Assembly: GCF_901827185.1 (NCBI RefSeq)
Contig: NZ_LR594671.1
Coordinates: 1,860,001-1,924,000, forward strand
DNA: 64,000 nt
DNA from: Variovorax sp. PBL-E5
GTDB lineage: Bacteria > Pseudomonadota > Gammaproteobacteria > Burkholderiales > Burkholderiaceae_C
Direction of reading: 5' to 3'
Shown here: positions 13,917 through 46,299 of the stretch, in pieces
Numbering within the stretch: position 1 is the first letter of the stretch
How the letters are laid out: every line of letters starts with the position of its first letter
Program-made: the position numbers and the translations under genes
The notes under the pieces: generated by a model
Seen by the model: only the letters and a program-made list of their open reading frames with translations
What the model was told of the DNA's origin: nothing
Database searches by the model: none

Positions 13917-14006
13917 GGTTGGCCTTTGCAGAGGTTGCCTGAATCAGGGCGCACGAACCCGGCGCCGGCCACGCGCGCGAACGCGCCTGCCGGCAACGGG
14001 GCCGCG

Positions 14007-14156
14007 CTCTCTTTCATCCGGACTGTGACCGTCGGCCCCGGGATCTCACCAGGTCTGCTGACCCTGCGGTCCATGACGGGCCGCAGGCGCTCGCGGGCTC
14101 GTGCGAACGTGTCGCCATCACCGCCGGTGGGGAATTTCGCCCCGCCCTGAGAACGC
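14007..14156 (-). ncRNA. FMN riboswitch (RFN element)
   Basis: On the minus strand the transcript begins with TTCTCAGGGCGGGGCGAAA at 14155-14137, then TTCCCCACCGGCGGTGATGG, and ends with GGCCGACGGTCACAGTCCGG followed by ATGAAAGAGAG near 14010. These are the strictly conserved blocks of the RFN aptamer. It lies 90 bases ahead of ribH. Bound FMN should switch off the gene; no poly-T terminator is visible between aptamer and start codon, so control is probably at the ribosome-binding site (inference). Confidence 0.95.
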
Positions 14157-14256
14157 TTGCTCCGGCCGAAGCCGGAACGCCGCGATTCTAGACAGGGCTG
14201 CGCGTGCCCGCTGTCACGCAGGAGCGAAAACCCTGGGGCGCGCCGGGGTGACCTGT

Positions 14257-34707: not shown

Positions 34708-36575
34708 GCGCGTCGCGCGATGCCGCGGAGATGGCGGGCCCTGTCGCAGGATCGACGATGAATGCGCGCTGGAAGGCGTTCCTGCCACTGCTCTCATGTC
34801 TGCCGCTCGCGTTGATCTCGATGAGCGTCACCGGATTCCAGTTCGGCGTCAACAACAACATTTTTCATATCCCCTACGTCCTCGATCTCGCCAGCTCTCC
34901 GGAATTTGCGGGCGATGCCTTTTCGCAGTCGCTCGGCAAGTTCACTTCTGCGCTCTGGCCATTGGTGCGCCTGATTGCGAACGAATCGAACGTTCGCGAC
35001 GTGTTCCTCGTGCTGGCGTCGATCAGCAGGCTCCTGGCGCTGGTTGCAGTCCTGTATCTGGTCAGGCTCAACGGCGTCAAGTCGATCGGTGCCCAGATCG
35101 CATGCCTGAGCGTGGTCGCGGTGACCCCGCTGATGACAGGCTATTCGCCCATCGGGTCGGACGGCCTGTTCCTGCCGTACTTCACTCACAGCGAGGTGAC
35201 GTGGCCGGCGGTTTTCATGTCGCTCGCCCTGATGCAGCGGAGTCGGATCGCCGCGGCGGCGAGTTTCACCGGCATTGCCTTTGCGCTCAACGCATTCGTC
35301 GGCATATGGATGGTGTTCGTGAACATCGCGTCCCGGATCTTCGATACCCGCCGCTTGCCGCGCGCCGGCGAGATCCTGAAATACGGCGCGGTGGTCGGGT
35401 TGATCGCGTTGCCCGTCCTCGTCTGGATTTCATTTGCCGTGCTGGGGGCGAAGCCGGGCGCGCCTTTCAGCTACATCGAGTACGTTCGGGAGTTCTATCC
35501 CAACCACTTTCTGATCGAGGCGGCAAGCAAGGATCGCTCGGCCGCGTTGATGGTGATGTTCGTGTGCGGGCTGATCGGCGCGCTCCATACGGCCAATCCG
35601 CGGTATTGGGTGGGCGTGCAGTTGTCGGTTCTGGCGCTACTGGTCGTCGGGTCCTTCTTGCCCTACCTGATCAACAGGCGCTTCATCTTCAACCTTCATC
35701 TCTTGCGAGCGGACGGTCTGGAGCAGGCGGTGAGCATCCTCCTCTGCGCGATGGCCGCCGTCAAACTCTGGGTCGGCGGCACATCGGCGCGCCAACGCTG
35801 GATGGGCGTCATCGTGCTGGTGGGCCTGCTGAGCTGGCCCAAATCGCTTGCCGGCTTGATGTTGCCAGTGACCGCTTTGGCATTGCTTGCCGGCTTGTCT
35901 GATCAGGCGGATGCCATACCCGTCCGTGCCGCAGGCCAGTGGATCCGGCGTCATGAAACGGCGCTGGCGTGGCTGGCGACTGCGGGGTTCGGAGGCCTGT
36001 TTCTGTTCGAAGCCGTCAAGCTTGGCGCCGGAGCAGGCCTTGCGGCGCGGCTTGCTTTCGTCGCCGTGGCGCTTTATCTGATTTGGCGACCGACGTTCGT
36101 CGCTTCCTGGACGCCTGTGAAAGCGACGACGACCTGCACCGTGGCGGCACTCCTGGTTTCGGGTTTGGCGATTCAGCAGCGCATGACCAACGACCCGGGT
36201 CCGTCGGCATCGTCACAGGATTGGGACGACCTGGTTGCATGGGTACGCGCCAGCGATATTCACGGTGTCTTTCTCGTGCCGCTGGACGGGTCCGACAATT
36301 TTCAGCTGCGGGCGCGCCGTCCCGTGTGGGTTGGCGCGGTGCAAGGTGCCGCGGTGATGTGGGAGCCTTCGTTCTACGCGCAATGGTCGCCGCGTTTCAA
36401 TGACCTGCTTCCGTTGAAGACTGCGCGAGAGTTCATCGCCTATGCGAGCGCGCACCAGATCCGCCATGTGGTGATCGATACCCAGACCGGCGACTGTGCG
36501 GCGCCGGCCGAACTCGTCAAGCGAACCGGGCGCTATGCGCTGTGCCGTGTCGGCAACGCGGCCGGAGCGATGTGA
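34704..36575 (+). CDS. large polytopic membrane protein, probable GT-C-type glycosyltransferase
   Basis: A 623-residue protein with about 11-13 hydrophobic segments followed by a soluble C-terminal domain of about 120 residues (ASSQDWDDLVAWVRASDIHGVFLVPLDGSD...). This layout is that of GT-C lipid-linked sugar transferases. I do not recognise the exact family and see no certain catalytic DxD/ExD motif in the first loop, though FHIPYVLDLASSPEFAGDAF is acidic. The start is taken as GTG at 34704, which overlaps the HAD-UbiA stop by four bases; an ATG at 34731 is possible. It probably transfers the sugar made by the upstream pair. Confidence 0.75.
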   Translation: MSASRDAAEMAGPVAGSTMNARWKAFLPLLSCLPLALISMSVTGFQFGVNNNIFHIPYVLDLASSPEFAGDAFSQSLGKFTSALWPLVRLIANESNVRDVFLVLASISRLLALVAVLYLVRLNGVKSIGAQIACLSVVAVTPLMTGYSPIGSDGLFLPYFTHSEVTWPAVFMSLALMQRSRIAAAASFTGIAFALNAFVGIWMVFVNIASRIFDTRRLPRAGEILKYGAVVGLIALPVLVWISFAVLGAKPGAPFSYIEYVREFYPNHFLIEAASKDRSAALMVMFVCGLIGALHTANPRYWVGVQLSVLALLVVGSFLPYLINRRFIFNLHLLRADGLEQAVSILLCAMAAVKLWVGGTSARQRWMGVIVLVGLLSWPKSLAGLMLPVTALALLAGLSDQADAIPVRAAGQWIRRHETALAWLATAGFGGLFLFEAVKLGAGAGLAARLAFVAVALYLIWRPTFVASWTPVKATTTCTVAALLVSGLAIQQRMTNDPGPSASSQDWDDLVAWVRASDIHGVFLVPLDGSDNFQLRARRPVWVGAVQGAAVMWEPSFYAQWSPRFNDLLPLKTAREFIAYASAHQIRHVVIDTQTGDCAAPAELVKRTGRYALCRVGNAAGAM

Positions 36576-36660
36576 AAGAGGGTCGCCTCCACACGCCGAA
36601 ATCCGCCGCGGATAGAATGACGGACTTCGTCCGAACAAGAGCGAGAAAGGCATCTTGGTT

Positions 36661-36723
36661 ATGACACCGCGAACTACGCCGCAAGCATTCAGCGGTCTTT
36701 TCCCTGAAGGAAAAGGCCGGTAG
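36661..36723 (+). CDS. candidate thrS leader peptide (attenuator)
   Basis: A 20-residue ORF, MTPRTTPQAFSGLFPEGKGR, with AAAGG ending 10 bases before its ATG. Threonine occupies codons 2, 5 and 6, using ACA, ACT and ACG; ACA and ACT are rare choices in a GC-rich genome. It ends 40 bases before a perfect terminator that precedes thrS. The arrangement matches leader peptides of ribosome-mediated attenuators, which stall at codons of the amino acid being sensed. Codon content and position are seen directly; the role is inferred. Confidence 0.6.
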   Translation: MTPRTTPQAFSGLFPEGKGR

Positions 36724-36790
36724 GCCGCGCATGCTGGAAGCATCCAGCACCTGAACCATAGCCAAGCGCGGTCGCAGACCGCGCTTTTTT
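36723..36790 (+). terminator. thrS attenuator: terminator with competing antiterminator
   Basis: The terminator is AAGCGCGGTC (36764-36773), loop GCA, GACCGCGCTT (36777-36786), then more T. Its 5' arm can instead pair with GGCCGCGC at 36723-36730 (eight pairs, one G-U), which starts on the leader's stop codon. A ribosome that reaches the stop would cover this strand and let the terminator form; one stalled at the early Thr codons would leave it free. A further 10-bp hairpin lies inside the leader ORF at 36694-36718. Confidence 0.7.
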
Positions 36791-36812
36791 GTTTTCTCGC
36801 CGAGGTTTTTTC

Positions 36813-38720
36813 ATGATCCAGATCACGCTCCCCGACAACTCGCGACGCGAGTTTCCCGGCCCGGTTTCGGTGGCCGACGTTGCCAAGGCCATCGGCCCCG
36901 GCCTTGCAAAGATGACCGTTGCCGGCAAGGTCGACGGCCGACTGGTCGATGCGAGCGACCTGATCGATCACGACGCGAAGCTGCAGATCATCACGCCGAA
37001 GGACGAGGAAGGCCTGGAGATCATTCGCCACTCGACGGCGCATCTGGTCGGGCATGCGGTGAAGCAGCTCTATCCGACGGCCAAGATGGTCATCGGCCCG
37101 GTGATCGACGAAGGCTTCTACTACGACATCTCGTACGAGCGCCCCTTCACGCCCGAGGACATGGCGGCGATCGAGGCGCGCATGCGCGAGCTGATCGCGC
37201 AGGACTATGACGTGGTCAAGAAGGTGATGCCGCGCGACGAAGTCATCAGCGTGTTCAAGTCGCGCGGCGAAGACTACAAGCTGCGGCTCGTGGAGGACAT
37301 GCCCGACGAGAAGGCCATGGGCTTGTACTACCATCAGGAATACGTCGACATGTGCCGCGGCCCGCACGTGCCGAACACGCGTTTCCTCAAGGTGTTCAAG
37401 CTCATGAAACTCGCCGGTGCGTACTGGCGCGGCGATGCCAAGAACGAGCAACTGCAGCGCATCTACGGGACGGCCTGGGCGGACAAGAAGCAGCTCGACG
37501 ACTACATCCGTCGCATCGAGGAAGCCGAGAAGCGCGACCATCGCCGGCTCGGCAAGGAACTCGACCTGTTCCACATCGACGAGGCGGCACCCGGCGTGGT
37601 GTTCTGGCATCCGAAAGGCTGGGCGATGTGGCAGCAGGTCGAGCAGCACATGCGCAAGGTCTATCGCGACACGGGCTACGACGAAGTCAAGGGTCCGCAG
37701 ATTCTCGACAAGAGCCTCTGGGAAAAGACGGGCCACTGGCAGAACTACCGCGAGAACATGTTCGTCACCGAATCGGAGAAGCGCGAATATGCGCTGAAGC
37801 CGATGAACTGCCCTGGGCACGTGCTGATCTTCAAGTCGGACCTGCGCAGCTACCGCGATCTGCCCATCCGATACGGCGAGTTCGGCCAGTGCCATCGCAA
37901 CGAACCGAGCGGCGCGCTGCACGGCATCATGCGCGTGCGCGGATTCACGCAGGATGACGGGCACATCTTCTGCACCGAAGACCACATCCTCGAGGAGTGC
38001 GTCGCCTACACGGCGCAACTGCAGAAGGTCTATGCCGATTTCGGCTTCACGGACATCCTGTACAAGGTCGCGACGCGGCCGGACAATCGCGTCGGCTCGG
38101 ACGCGCTCTGGGACAAGGCCGAATACGCCGTGATGGAGGCCTTGCGCCGCTCCGGCGTCGACTTCGTGGTCTCGCCGGGCGAAGGCGCCTTCTACGGGCC
38201 GAAGATCGAATACACGCTCAAGGACGCGATCGGCCGCCAATGGCAGTGCGGCACGATGCAGGTCGACTTCAACACGGCCGAGCGCCTGGGAGGCGAGTAC
38301 GTCACCGAGACGAGCGGCCGCGCGTATCCGGTCATGCTCCATCGCGCGATCGTCGGCAGCCTCGAGCGCTTCATCGGGATGCTGATCGAACATCACGCGG
38401 GCGCGATGCCCGCCTGGCTCGCGCCGGCGCATGTCGCGGTGCTCAATATCAGCGAAGGCCAGGCCGACTACGCCAGGCAAGTTGCGAAAACGCTGCAAAA
38501 TCAAGGGCTTAGGGTTCAGGTCGACCTGCACAACGAAAAGATTACGTATAAAATACGGAAGCATTCGTTGCAGAAGCTTCCGTATATCCTCGTCGTGGGC
38601 GACAAGGAGAAGGAAGCAGGTGCCGTCGCAGTGCGCGCCCGGGGTAACCAAGACCTCGGTGCAATGTCCCTTGAGTCGTTCACGCAGCGTCTCGTCCAGG
38701 ATATTGCCGAGAAGCGTTGA
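36813..38720 (+). CDS. thrS: threonyl-tRNA synthetase
   Basis: A 635-residue class-II aminoacyl-tRNA synthetase. It has an N-terminal TGS domain (residues 1-60), the editing domain (about 65-225, [16 protein letters not shown] with the HxxxH metal-type motif), the catalytic core with the zinc Cys at 333 in [10 protein letters not shown], motif 2 [19 protein letters not shown], motif 3 near [12 protein letters not shown], and a C-terminal anticodon-binding domain ([11 protein letters not shown]...). The start [10 protein letters not shown] is 23 bases after the attenuator terminator. It heads the operon with infC, rpmI, rplT, pheS, pheT and ihfA. Confidence 0.98.
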
Positions 38721-40222: not shown

Positions 40223-40257
40223 AAGGGCTGGCGCTTGAAAGAGCTCCAGCCCTTTTT
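40223..40257 (+). terminator. terminator-like hairpin between rplT and pheS
   Basis: AAGGGCTGG (40223-40231) pairs with CCAGCCCTT (40246-40254); inside, GCTT-GAAA-GAGC adds four more pairs capped by a GNRA-type tetraloop, and TTT follows. It lies within the operon, 46 bases before pheS, so it is probably a partial terminator or attenuator. I found no Phe-rich leader ORF before it. Confidence 0.65.
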
Positions 40258-40302
40258 CATCGCGGCATCGGCCCGTTTTCTTTCACCTCGAAGATTTTTT
40301 CC

Positions 40303-44750: not shown

Positions 44751-44827
44751 CGGTGTGTGGCGCAGCCTGGTAGCGCACTTGCATGGGGTGCAAGGGGTCG
44801 AAGGTTCGAATCCTTTCACACCGACCA
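44751..44827 (+). tRNA. tRNA-Pro(GGG)
   Basis: A 77-base cloverleaf. Acceptor arms are CGGTGTG (44751-44757) and CACACCG (44817-44823); the anticodon stem CTTGC/GCAAG encloses loop ATGGGGT with anticodon GGG (reads CCC). The T-arm contains GGTTCGAATCC, and A73 plus CCA are encoded (44824-44827). Its 3' end is the attachment site of the island that follows. Confidence 0.97.
44814..44827 (+). repeat. left attachment site (attL) in the tRNA-Pro 3' end
   Basis: TTTCACACCGACCA, the last 14 bases of the tRNA, recurs at 55530-55543 as TTTCACACCGCCCA (13 of 14 identical). It marks the left limit of the integrated element. Confidence 0.8.
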
Positions 44828-44838
44828 CAAGACAAATC

Positions 44839-44873
44839 AAAGGCCGCTAGGAACATACACCTAGCGGCCTTTT
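44839..44873 (+). terminator. strong intrinsic terminator after tRNA-Pro
   Basis: AAAGGCCGCTAGG (44839-44851) and CCTAGCGGCCTTT (44860-44872) are exact complements around an 8-base loop, ending in TTTT. It lies to the right of attL, so it comes with the island and replaces whatever terminator the tRNA had before integration. Confidence 0.9.
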
Positions 44874-44940
44874 CATCGGTAAATCAGTGACTTAGCGGGC
44901 AAGGACGTACAGGGCGCTACATTGACTGCCAGCCCAAAGC

Positions 44941-45057
44941 GGGGGTACAAATGGGGGTGCAGGGCGGTGTTTCAGGGGTATTTGGGGGGCGTGTACCCCC
45001 TTTCCCCAGCGAAAACACCCGCCGGTTGCACCCCCACCTTGTCGGAGTCGTACCCCC
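44941..45057. repeat. left cluster of GGGGGTACA-type arm sites
   Basis: Direct copies at 44941-44949 (GGGGGTACA) and 44953-44961 (GGGGGTGCA), and inverted copies at 44992-45000 (TGTACCCCC), 45027-45035 (TGCACCCCC) and 45050-45057 (GTACCCCC), ending at the integrase ATG. A partial GGGGTA is at 44975. These are likely arm-type binding sites for the integrase or excisionase, and may also let the integrase repress its own gene. Confidence 0.65.
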
Positions 45058-46299
45058 ATGCTGACTGATGCCCAATGCAGGAACGCCACATGCCCACCAG
45101 ACCGGCGGCAGGCGCGCTTCAGTGATGCCGGCGGCCTGTATTTGCAGGTCAGCCCAGCAGGTTCGCGGCGCTGGTTTTGGAAGTACCGGTTAGCCGGCGT
45201 CGAAAAGCAACTGGCTCTTGGCGGTTACCCGGACGTGAGCCTGACGGCAGCCCGCAAGGCTCGCGATGCCGCAAAGCTGGAAAAAGCCGGCGGCCGCGAT
45301 CCCGTGCAAGCCCGCAAGGTGGCCAAGCTCAAAGCTACGGCGGTGGAGTCGGATACGTTCAAGGCGACGGCGTTGGAATGGTTCGGCAAGCATGAATCAC
45401 GGTGGAGCACGCACTACGCCATTCGTGAGAAACGCAACCTCGAAAAAGACCTGTTTCCGCACTTCGCTGATCGACGCGTCGGTGAGATTGAACCCATAGA
45501 GTTGTTGGCCGCGCTGCGCCGGGTAGAGGAACGCGGCGCACTCGACGTGGCGCACCGTGTGCTGATTACGGCCCGTGCTGTCTGGCGCTATGCCGTGGCC
45601 ACGGCGCGGGCACCGCGCGACATTACCGGCGACCTCAAAGGCGCACTGACGCCGCACAAGAAACGGCACTTCGCAGCCATTACCGACCCGGTGAAGCTGG
45701 GCGAGTTGGTACGCGTGATCCGAGGCTATCAAGGCGGCGCCATCGTTCGGGCAGCGCTGCAACTGGCACCGATGCTGTTTCAGCGGCCCAACGAGCTTCG
45801 CGGCGCGGCATGGGCAGAGATTGACCTCGACGCAGCGCTGTGGACGGTGCCAGCGGCACGCATGAAGCGGCGCAAGGACGGCAAGGAAAACGGCGATCCG
45901 CATTTGGTGCCACTGCCCCGGCAGGCATTGGAGATTCTGCGCAAGCTGCATCCGATCACCGGGCACGGCGCGATGGTGTTCCCCGGTGAACGTAGCCACG
46001 AGCGGCCTATCAGCGACAACACCCTGCGGGCTGCGTTGCTGACATTGGGTTATGGCCCCACGGTGCAGACCGTTCATGGATTCCGCGCCACGGCGCGCAC
46101 CATGCTGGCCGAAGTGCTGGACGTTGAGCCGCTTGTGATCGAGGCGCAACTAGCGCACGCCGTCAAAGATGCGAATGGGCGGGCCTACAACCGCACGAAG
46201 TACGCCAAGCACCGCGCCGAGATGATGCAGAAGTGGGCGGACTATCTGGATAAATTGGCTACCGGCGCAGACGTGATCCCGATCAACCGGGCAGCGTGA
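45058..46299 (+). CDS. P4-type tyrosine integrase
   Basis: A 413-residue site-specific recombinase that inserts and excises the island at tRNA-Pro. The N-terminal DUF4102-type arm-binding domain (LTDAQCRNATCPPDRRQARFSDAGGLYLQV...GSRRWFWKYRL) is that of P4-like integrases. The catalytic set is present: Arg243 in FQRPNELRGAAW, His340 and Arg343 in VHGFRATARTM, and Tyr377 in GRAYNRTKY. The domain is complete, so the enzyme should be active. The ATG follows directly on an arm-site repeat; its stop overlaps a possible GTG of the next gene. Confidence 0.96.
   Translation: MLTDAQCRNATCPPDRRQARFSDAGGLYLQVSPAGSRRWFWKYRLAGVEKQLALGGYPDVSLTAARKARDAAKLEKAGGRDPVQARKVAKLKATAVESDTFKATALEWFGKHESRWSTHYAIREKRNLEKDLFPHFADRRVGEIEPIELLAALRRVEERGALDVAHRVLITARAVWRYAVATARAPRDITGDLKGALTPHKKRHFAAITDPVKLGELVRVIRGYQGGAIVRAALQLAPMLFQRPNELRGAAWAEIDLDAALWTVPAARMKRRKDGKENGDPHLVPLPRQALEILRKLHPITGHGAMVFPGERSHERPISDNTLRAALLTLGYGPTVQTVHGFRATARTMLAEVLDVEPLVIEAQLAHAVKDANGRAYNRTKYAKHRAEMMQKWADYLDKLATGADVIPINRAA

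Follow-up and report, generated by a model that had tools for sequence, protein, structure and literature searches.

A Putative Threonine-Codon Attenuator in Front of thrS in Variovorax sp. PBL-E5 and Many of Its Relatives

Introduction

The leader-peptide attenuators of the trp, his, and thr operons of enterobacteria are composed of a short ORF that carries codons for the regulated amino acid, a stop codon placed by the antiterminator, and a terminator before the first gene. The control of thrS in E. coli is of another kind and is the textbook example of translational self-repression by a synthetase, in which the threonyl-tRNA synthetase (ThrRS) binds to its own mRNA. A leader-peptide attenuator that does act on a synthetase gene is E. 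coli pheM-pheST, which belongs to the same operon neighbourhood as the locus described here but has its leader before pheST, whereas the codons considered here are Thr codons before thrS. The part of PMC1262725 available to us names pheST a classical attenuator.

The closest described system is thrL-thrS of Streptomyces lividans TK24, in which a Thr-containing leader peptide (MKRVRPFLETTPGFVPAR) precedes thrS and is listed among attenuators in the accessible part of PMC8079986; according to the same part, thrL is translated leaderless and its termination is unclear. This kind of control is therefore already known, as far as that part of the source goes. The original prediction for our locus had held that no Thr attenuator was known on such an operon, a statement that has to be amended for the Thr leader before thrS in S. 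lividans and that stands, as far as the accessible part of PMC8079986 extends, for this operon arrangement and this order. Our literature search found no thrS leader-peptide attenuator for the order, although the study of Lopatovskaya (2010) on attenuation of synthetase operons could contain one.

We analyzed a 64-kb stretch of the genome of Variovorax sp. PBL-E5 (the window), in which a Thr-codon ORF lies in front of thrS. Like the trp, his, and thr attenuators, the window has an ORF with codons for one amino acid, a stop codon next to the antiterminator strand, and a terminator before thrS, but it differs from them in that a tRNA synthetase operon would be controlled, the 1:2 stem is weak or variable, and the ORF starts with a rare-codon block. 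With S. lividans thrL-thrS, as the accessible part of PMC8079986 presents it, it shares a threonine leader peptide 5′ of thrS; unlike that system, it belongs to another phylum, its start block is near-invariant and accompanied by a Shine-Dalgarno (SD)-like element, its terminator is clear, and its antiterminator covaries. As with the E. coli thrS operator, the charging system would control thrS, but whereas ThrRS blocks translation there, the evidence from the window points to ribosome stalling and transcription termination.

Results

The features of the leader in the window are collected in Table 1, and the coordinates originally given for the ORF, its stop codon, the terminator, and an alternative 8-bp pairing all hold on re-reading of the sequence. 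The ORF begins with the ATG at 36661, carries the Thr codons ACA (36664), ACT (36673), and ACG (36676) as codons 2, 5, and 6, and ends with the TAG at 36721-36723. The terminator stem (36764-36773 with 36777-36786) has 10 bp, a loop of 3, a T tail, and a computed energy of −16.6 kcal/mol. The alternative pairing, termed 2:3, joins GGCCGCGC at 36723-36730 to GCGCGGTC at 36766-36773 through 8 bp including one G-U. A sigma-70 scan returned no full promoter; among 62 relatives, 33 carried a listed −10-like hexamer 45-75 nt 5′ of their leader start, a count that has no chance control. The spacing between the SD-like element and the leader ATG is slightly variable among relatives, and complements resembling those of the long-range stem were seen by eye in L003, L004, L005, L009, L032, and L033. 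At 93% identity, thrS of Variovorax sp. KBW07 and thrS of V. paradoxus are the closest named relatives of the window thrS.

Table 1. Positions of the leader features and of thrS in the window
Feature	Position	Strand	Basis
−10-like hexamer TAGAAT; inferred transcript start ~36625	36613..36618	+	Read from sequence
SD-like element GAGAAAGG of leader ORF	36643..36650	+	Per-position identity 0.72-0.98 in 64 block-bearing leaders
Near-invariant block GGTTATGACACCGCGAACT, start region and codons 1-5	36657..36675	+	Conservation across relatives
Leader peptide ORF MTPRTTPQAFSGLFPEGKGR and stop, 20 codons	36661..36723	+	Sequence, relatives' leaders, codon-frame counts
CGA ACT ACG, rare Arg codon, then presumed sensing Thr codons 5 and 6	36670..36678	+	Codon counts, relatives
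Hairpin within leader ORF, 11 bp, loop CTGAA	36693..36719	+	RNA folds
Strand 2 (antiterminator strand), overlaps last base of stop codon	36723..36730	+	Pairing tests, covariation, fold
Small 7-bp hairpin separating strands 2 and 3	36732..36749	+	Fold
Intrinsic terminator; strand 3 is its 5′ arm	36764..36790	+	Terminator scan, fold
Long-range stem 36654-36663/36757-36766, encloses untranslated leader	36654..36766	+	Fold
thrS, first downstream gene	36813..38720	+	Pfam tRNA-synt_2b, HGTP_anticodon, tRNA_SAD, TGS

Compared with dinucleotide shuffles, the fold of the leader (36625-36795) is better by 4.1 SD (z = −4.1). The region 36400-37000 contains one terminator-like hairpin against a mean of 0.7 in shuffles, so a lone hairpin of this type is weak evidence. 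The terminator finder was permissive: it was passed by all 95 leaders but also by 45-54 of 95 shuffles, and terminator-like hairpins were found in 60 of 78 regions that have no leader, close to the shuffled rate.

The start of the leader is widespread in the family. With at most one mismatch to TTATGACACCGCGAACT (17 nt of the leader start), 301 of 397 family genomes and 104 of 126 genera had a match, and a DNA search with the whole leader matched 301 of 399 family genomes and 115 of 141 genera; these tallies count matches anywhere in a genome, and the position before thrS was seen in the fetched loci only. In a class-wide sample, five of 276 genomes matched TTATGACACCGCGAACT with at most one mismatch, three of them inside the family and two outside; the latter (L225 and L226) were rejected as thrS leaders, with no sign of one in the 240 nt read. 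Of 111 loci, 68 carried a leader that differs from 18 nt of the block by one mismatch at most, and a leader was present in 37 of 80 loci chosen by thrS similarity alone. Left out were L001 (the same place as L002), the duplicates L034 and L037, and L068, which lies too close to the contig start; L066, L078, and L086, which are without a canonical terminator, were left out of the pairing analysis.

Across 64 window-type leaders (30, counting the window, from genomes of the family and 34 from named records of unchecked GTDB family), positions −4 to +13 were 0.97-1.00 identical, a value that is partly circular since the set was chosen by at most two mismatches to 18 nt of the block. ATGACACCGCGAACT was exact in 56 of the 64 leaders, the set having been chosen for resemblance to the block. 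Beyond the start block, the leader ORF varies freely among relatives.

Among 66 distinct window-type leaders, 148 of 642 codons after the Arg-Thr pair were Thr in frame; the other two frames had 10 and 14 Thr among 576 codons each (24 of 1152 together), and base shuffles predict a Thr fraction of 0.073. When the first codon after the pair (codon 6, which is nearly fixed) was left out, 95 of 576 codons were still Thr. These codons lie mainly in the six positions after the pair and are rare later; for the counts, identical leader bodies were merged (95 to 92). In the 26 leaders of other families, Thr took 36 of 210 codons in frame and 9 and 3 of 184 in the other two frames. Among the matches listed, 31 rows had one mismatch. 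ACT was replaced by ACG in 20 of them and CGA by CGG in 8, changes that are silent when read in the leader frame; of the remaining three, one was ACA to GCA, one lay 5′ of the ATG, and one was a second site in its genome. Based on this codon pattern, the thrS leader ORF is predicted to be translated and to count threonine. A comparison of Thr codons across relatives had been proposed as a check, and it was favorable: in many relatives both the ORF and the early Thr codons persist, with the enrichment limited to the leader frame.

The start block is conserved at the nucleotide level, with CGA before the first key Thr codon. In 34 thrS genes of the same bacteria, ACA, CGA, and ACT make up only 0.028, 0.028, and 0.034 of their own codon families, and by this usage the run ACA CCG CGA ACT has a joint chance of 1.4e-5, so the conservation exceeds what the peptide alone would need. 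Such conservation is also what would be seen if the block were a site at which ThrRS binds the leader RNA, an autoregulation like that of E. coli thrS. However, the block lies ~150 nt from the thrS start in the window (131-197 nt 5′ of thrS in loci where thrS was annotated by similarity), the ~26 nt from the terminator stem to the thrS ATG leave little room for an operator of the E. coli type, which has anticodon-like arms close to the thrS ribosome-binding site on its 5′ side, and binding would not account for the Thr codons that lie past the block; we give this reading a very slight probability. The nucleotide-level conservation would likewise suit the seed of a trans-acting small RNA, if the terminated leader served mainly as one, and attenuator RNAs that act in trans are known, as in S. 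meliloti rnTrpL. Against this, a search of the window genome for 18 nt of the block, on both strands at 3 mismatches, gave only two more matches, and an RNA acting in trans would not by itself need Thr codons, which leaves it almost no probability. Additional copies of the block were looked for in 11 genomes and rejected: ten had one exact 18-nt copy and one (G061) had none.

It is possible, although we hold it doubtful, that the start block is itself a decoding element, in which the rare CGA, slow by inosine-A wobble, would occupy the P site as the first sensing ACU enters the A site. That Thr step would then limit the rate and make the switch respond with unusual sensitivity to the charging of Thr-tRNA, across many families of the order. 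The part of PMC4046918 available to us reports that translation of CGA is slow and that this codon relieves his-leader attenuation, which fits the hypothesis of a built-in pause before the sensing Thr codon.

The pairing of strand 2 with the terminator arm was compared with two kinds of control. Against shuffled spacers, 2:3 was better in the window (p = 0.02) and reached p ≤ 0.05 in 28 of 68 leaders (mean z −1.55). When terminator arms were permuted among the 68 leaders, none of 5,000 permutations was as good as strand 2 with its own arm, and the nonredundant set (n = 43) gave p = 0.0008, p values that overstate independence because the leader sequences are related. The effect is small, with the own arm beating a swapped arm in a mean fraction of 0.56-0.60 of comparisons (0.60 for the window-type leaders). 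The covarying stems that had been suggested as a check are thus present for strand 2 and the terminator arm. The 1:2 protector stem gave p = 0.43 in the window, no improvement on chance, and p ≤ 0.05 in 10 of 68 leaders (mean z −0.86). In the window, strand 2 begins at the last base of the stop codon, whereas many shorter leaders have it farther from the stop.

Folds were then computed with a ribosome of assumed 13-nt footprint. Behind a ribosome at Thr5 or Thr6, the nascent window RNA folds into 2:3; with the ribosome at the stop codon, the terminator and the small hairpin are all that forms in the complete RNA. The full-length RNA at equilibrium favors the terminator even when the ribosome is stalled (−47.4 kcal/mol), so the attenuator model needs timing. 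Across the 68 leaders, the mean computed pairing of the nascent terminator arm was 0.49 without a ribosome, 0.73 with a stalled one, and 0.61 with one at the stop, versus 0.67 in the shuffled null; stalled exceeded stop in 55 of 68 leaders and by more than 0.3 in 8 of 68, a difference in the right direction but of small size.

To follow the leader outside the family, 157 genomes had a thrS match, and 109 upstream regions (29 + 80 loci) were read, 105 of them from other families; 107 of the 109 run into the thrS start, L197 reaches it a few codons later, and L212 was not verified. A short ORF with CGAACT was found in 27 of the 105 regions and 16 of 46 families (shuffle mean 0.9), a choice that makes the CGA-ACT pair circular in that set. 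Without a codon anchor, a short ORF with at least three Thr codons was found in 27 of 105 regions versus 3-10 in shuffles, so that ~3-10 of these 27 are expected by chance, and in 17 of the 27, CGA immediately precedes the first Thr codon at or after codon 3. The 2:3 pairing in other families reached p ≤ 0.05 in 3 of 27 leaders (mean z −0.49), and the arm swap favored own pairs (n = 27, p = 0.011). A diverged leader-like ORF, MIARTFTVVKVRR, stands 5′ of thrS in L110 (Pandoraea), and another leader-like ORF, MTARTFTEVKARR, in L086 (a Burkholderiales MAG); the terminators of the two differ in sequence, and by eye the strand after the stop looks complementary to the arm.

By pattern match, a tRNA-Val (GAC)-like gene stands directly 5′ of thrS in 70 of the 105 regions, suggesting that thrS may be co-transcribed with tRNA-Val in much of the order. 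This raises the question of whether the hairpin is simply a terminator, possibly one taken over from a tRNA-Val unit upstream, with thrS expressed by partial readthrough and the ORF incidental. Terminator-like hairpins in 87 of the 105 regions, moderately above the 60-69 of shuffles, are in keeping with it, as are several relatives that by eye keep the hairpin without a leader (L065, L067, L077, L098, L103, and L111); of these, Limnohabitans L065, L067, and L098 have lost the leader but still show a promoter-like TAAAAT and the hairpin. A terminator kept with the ORF lost is the pattern originally named as speaking against attenuation. It does occur in some lineages, such as these Limnohabitans and a Polaromonas MAG (L077), whereas many relatives keep both. 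However, a plain terminator leaves the Thr codons in one frame, the synonymous variation of the block, and the 2:3 covariation unexplained, and we see only a small chance that it accounts for the locus. It may be the ancestral state, and the attenuator may have evolved 5′ of a pre-existing terminator, with later losses in some lineages. In L091, another Polaromonas MAG, the block is decayed, with ATA for the leader ATG, and the terminator is kept.

The genes 3′ of the leader are, by Pfam order, thrS, infC, rpmI, rplT, pheS, pheT, and a bacterial DNA-binding gene of the HU/IHF type. In the rplT-pheS gap (40223-40258), a 9-bp stem (AAGGGCTGG/CCAGCCCTT) that closes a 14-nt loop and precedes a T run was seen by eye; it is not listed by the hairpin scan, which was limited to loops of 3-8. 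This hairpin is a possible second terminator or attenuator before pheST and weakens the case for all seven genes obeying one switch. Of the proposal that seven translation genes are tied to Thr-tRNA, Pfam thus supports the gene set, whereas a single switch for all of them is weakened.

Discussion

The leader has the testable defining features of a trp/his-type attenuator, namely a Thr-rich ORF, a terminator, the 2:3 pairing, and the placement of the stop codon, with a weak signal for the 1:2 protector stem. The computation shows the ORF and the frame in which it codes, Thr codons early in it, the terminator, and the covarying 2:3 pairing in window-type leaders. Judged from sequence, the thrS leader very probably works as a ribosome-mediated transcription attenuator: it would sense charged Thr-tRNA and control thrS, possibly together with downstream genes. 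The original reading of a ribosome-mediated attenuator with a Thr-codon leader is supported by the conserved ORF, the frame-limited Thr codons, and the 2:3 covariation.

From this architecture we infer stalling, kinetic competition, and a response of the leader to threonine. When Thr-tRNA is plentiful, the ribosome would reach the stop codon at 36721 and cover strand 2, strand 3 would then pair with strand 4, and transcription would end at ~36790. When Thr-tRNA is short, the ribosome would stall at Thr codons 5-6 and leave strand 2 free to pair with strand 3, the terminator would be pre-empted, and thrS would be transcribed. A shortage of charged Thr-tRNA would probably lead to more ThrRS being made, in the window bacterium and in many relatives.

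Apparent Thr-codon attenuation at thrS is thus present in most sampled genomes of a large family and in scattered members of the order, and one gene, thrS, would be served by different charging sensors in different lineages. An origin of the thrS attenuator in front of a tRNA-Val terminator is possible, and the conserved rare codon offers a directly testable role in setting the sensitivity of an attenuator.

Two described classes of leader were considered and rejected. The Rfam scan of the window at gathering score matched only FMN and tRNA models, which rejects a T-box riboswitch, and the lack of any Rfam leader family at that score rejects a ribosomal-protein leader (L20 and the like). A permissive Rfam scan of 36500-36850 gave ncS025, Methylosinus-1, and suhB, all far below gathering scores.

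Elsewhere in the window, an FMN riboswitch (Rfam RF00050, 105 bits) lies at 14002-14158 on the minus strand. A tRNA-Pro (GGG) gene at 44751-44827 is followed by a phage-type integrase ORF at 45058-46299, an arrangement that suggests an element inserted at the tRNA (44751-46299).
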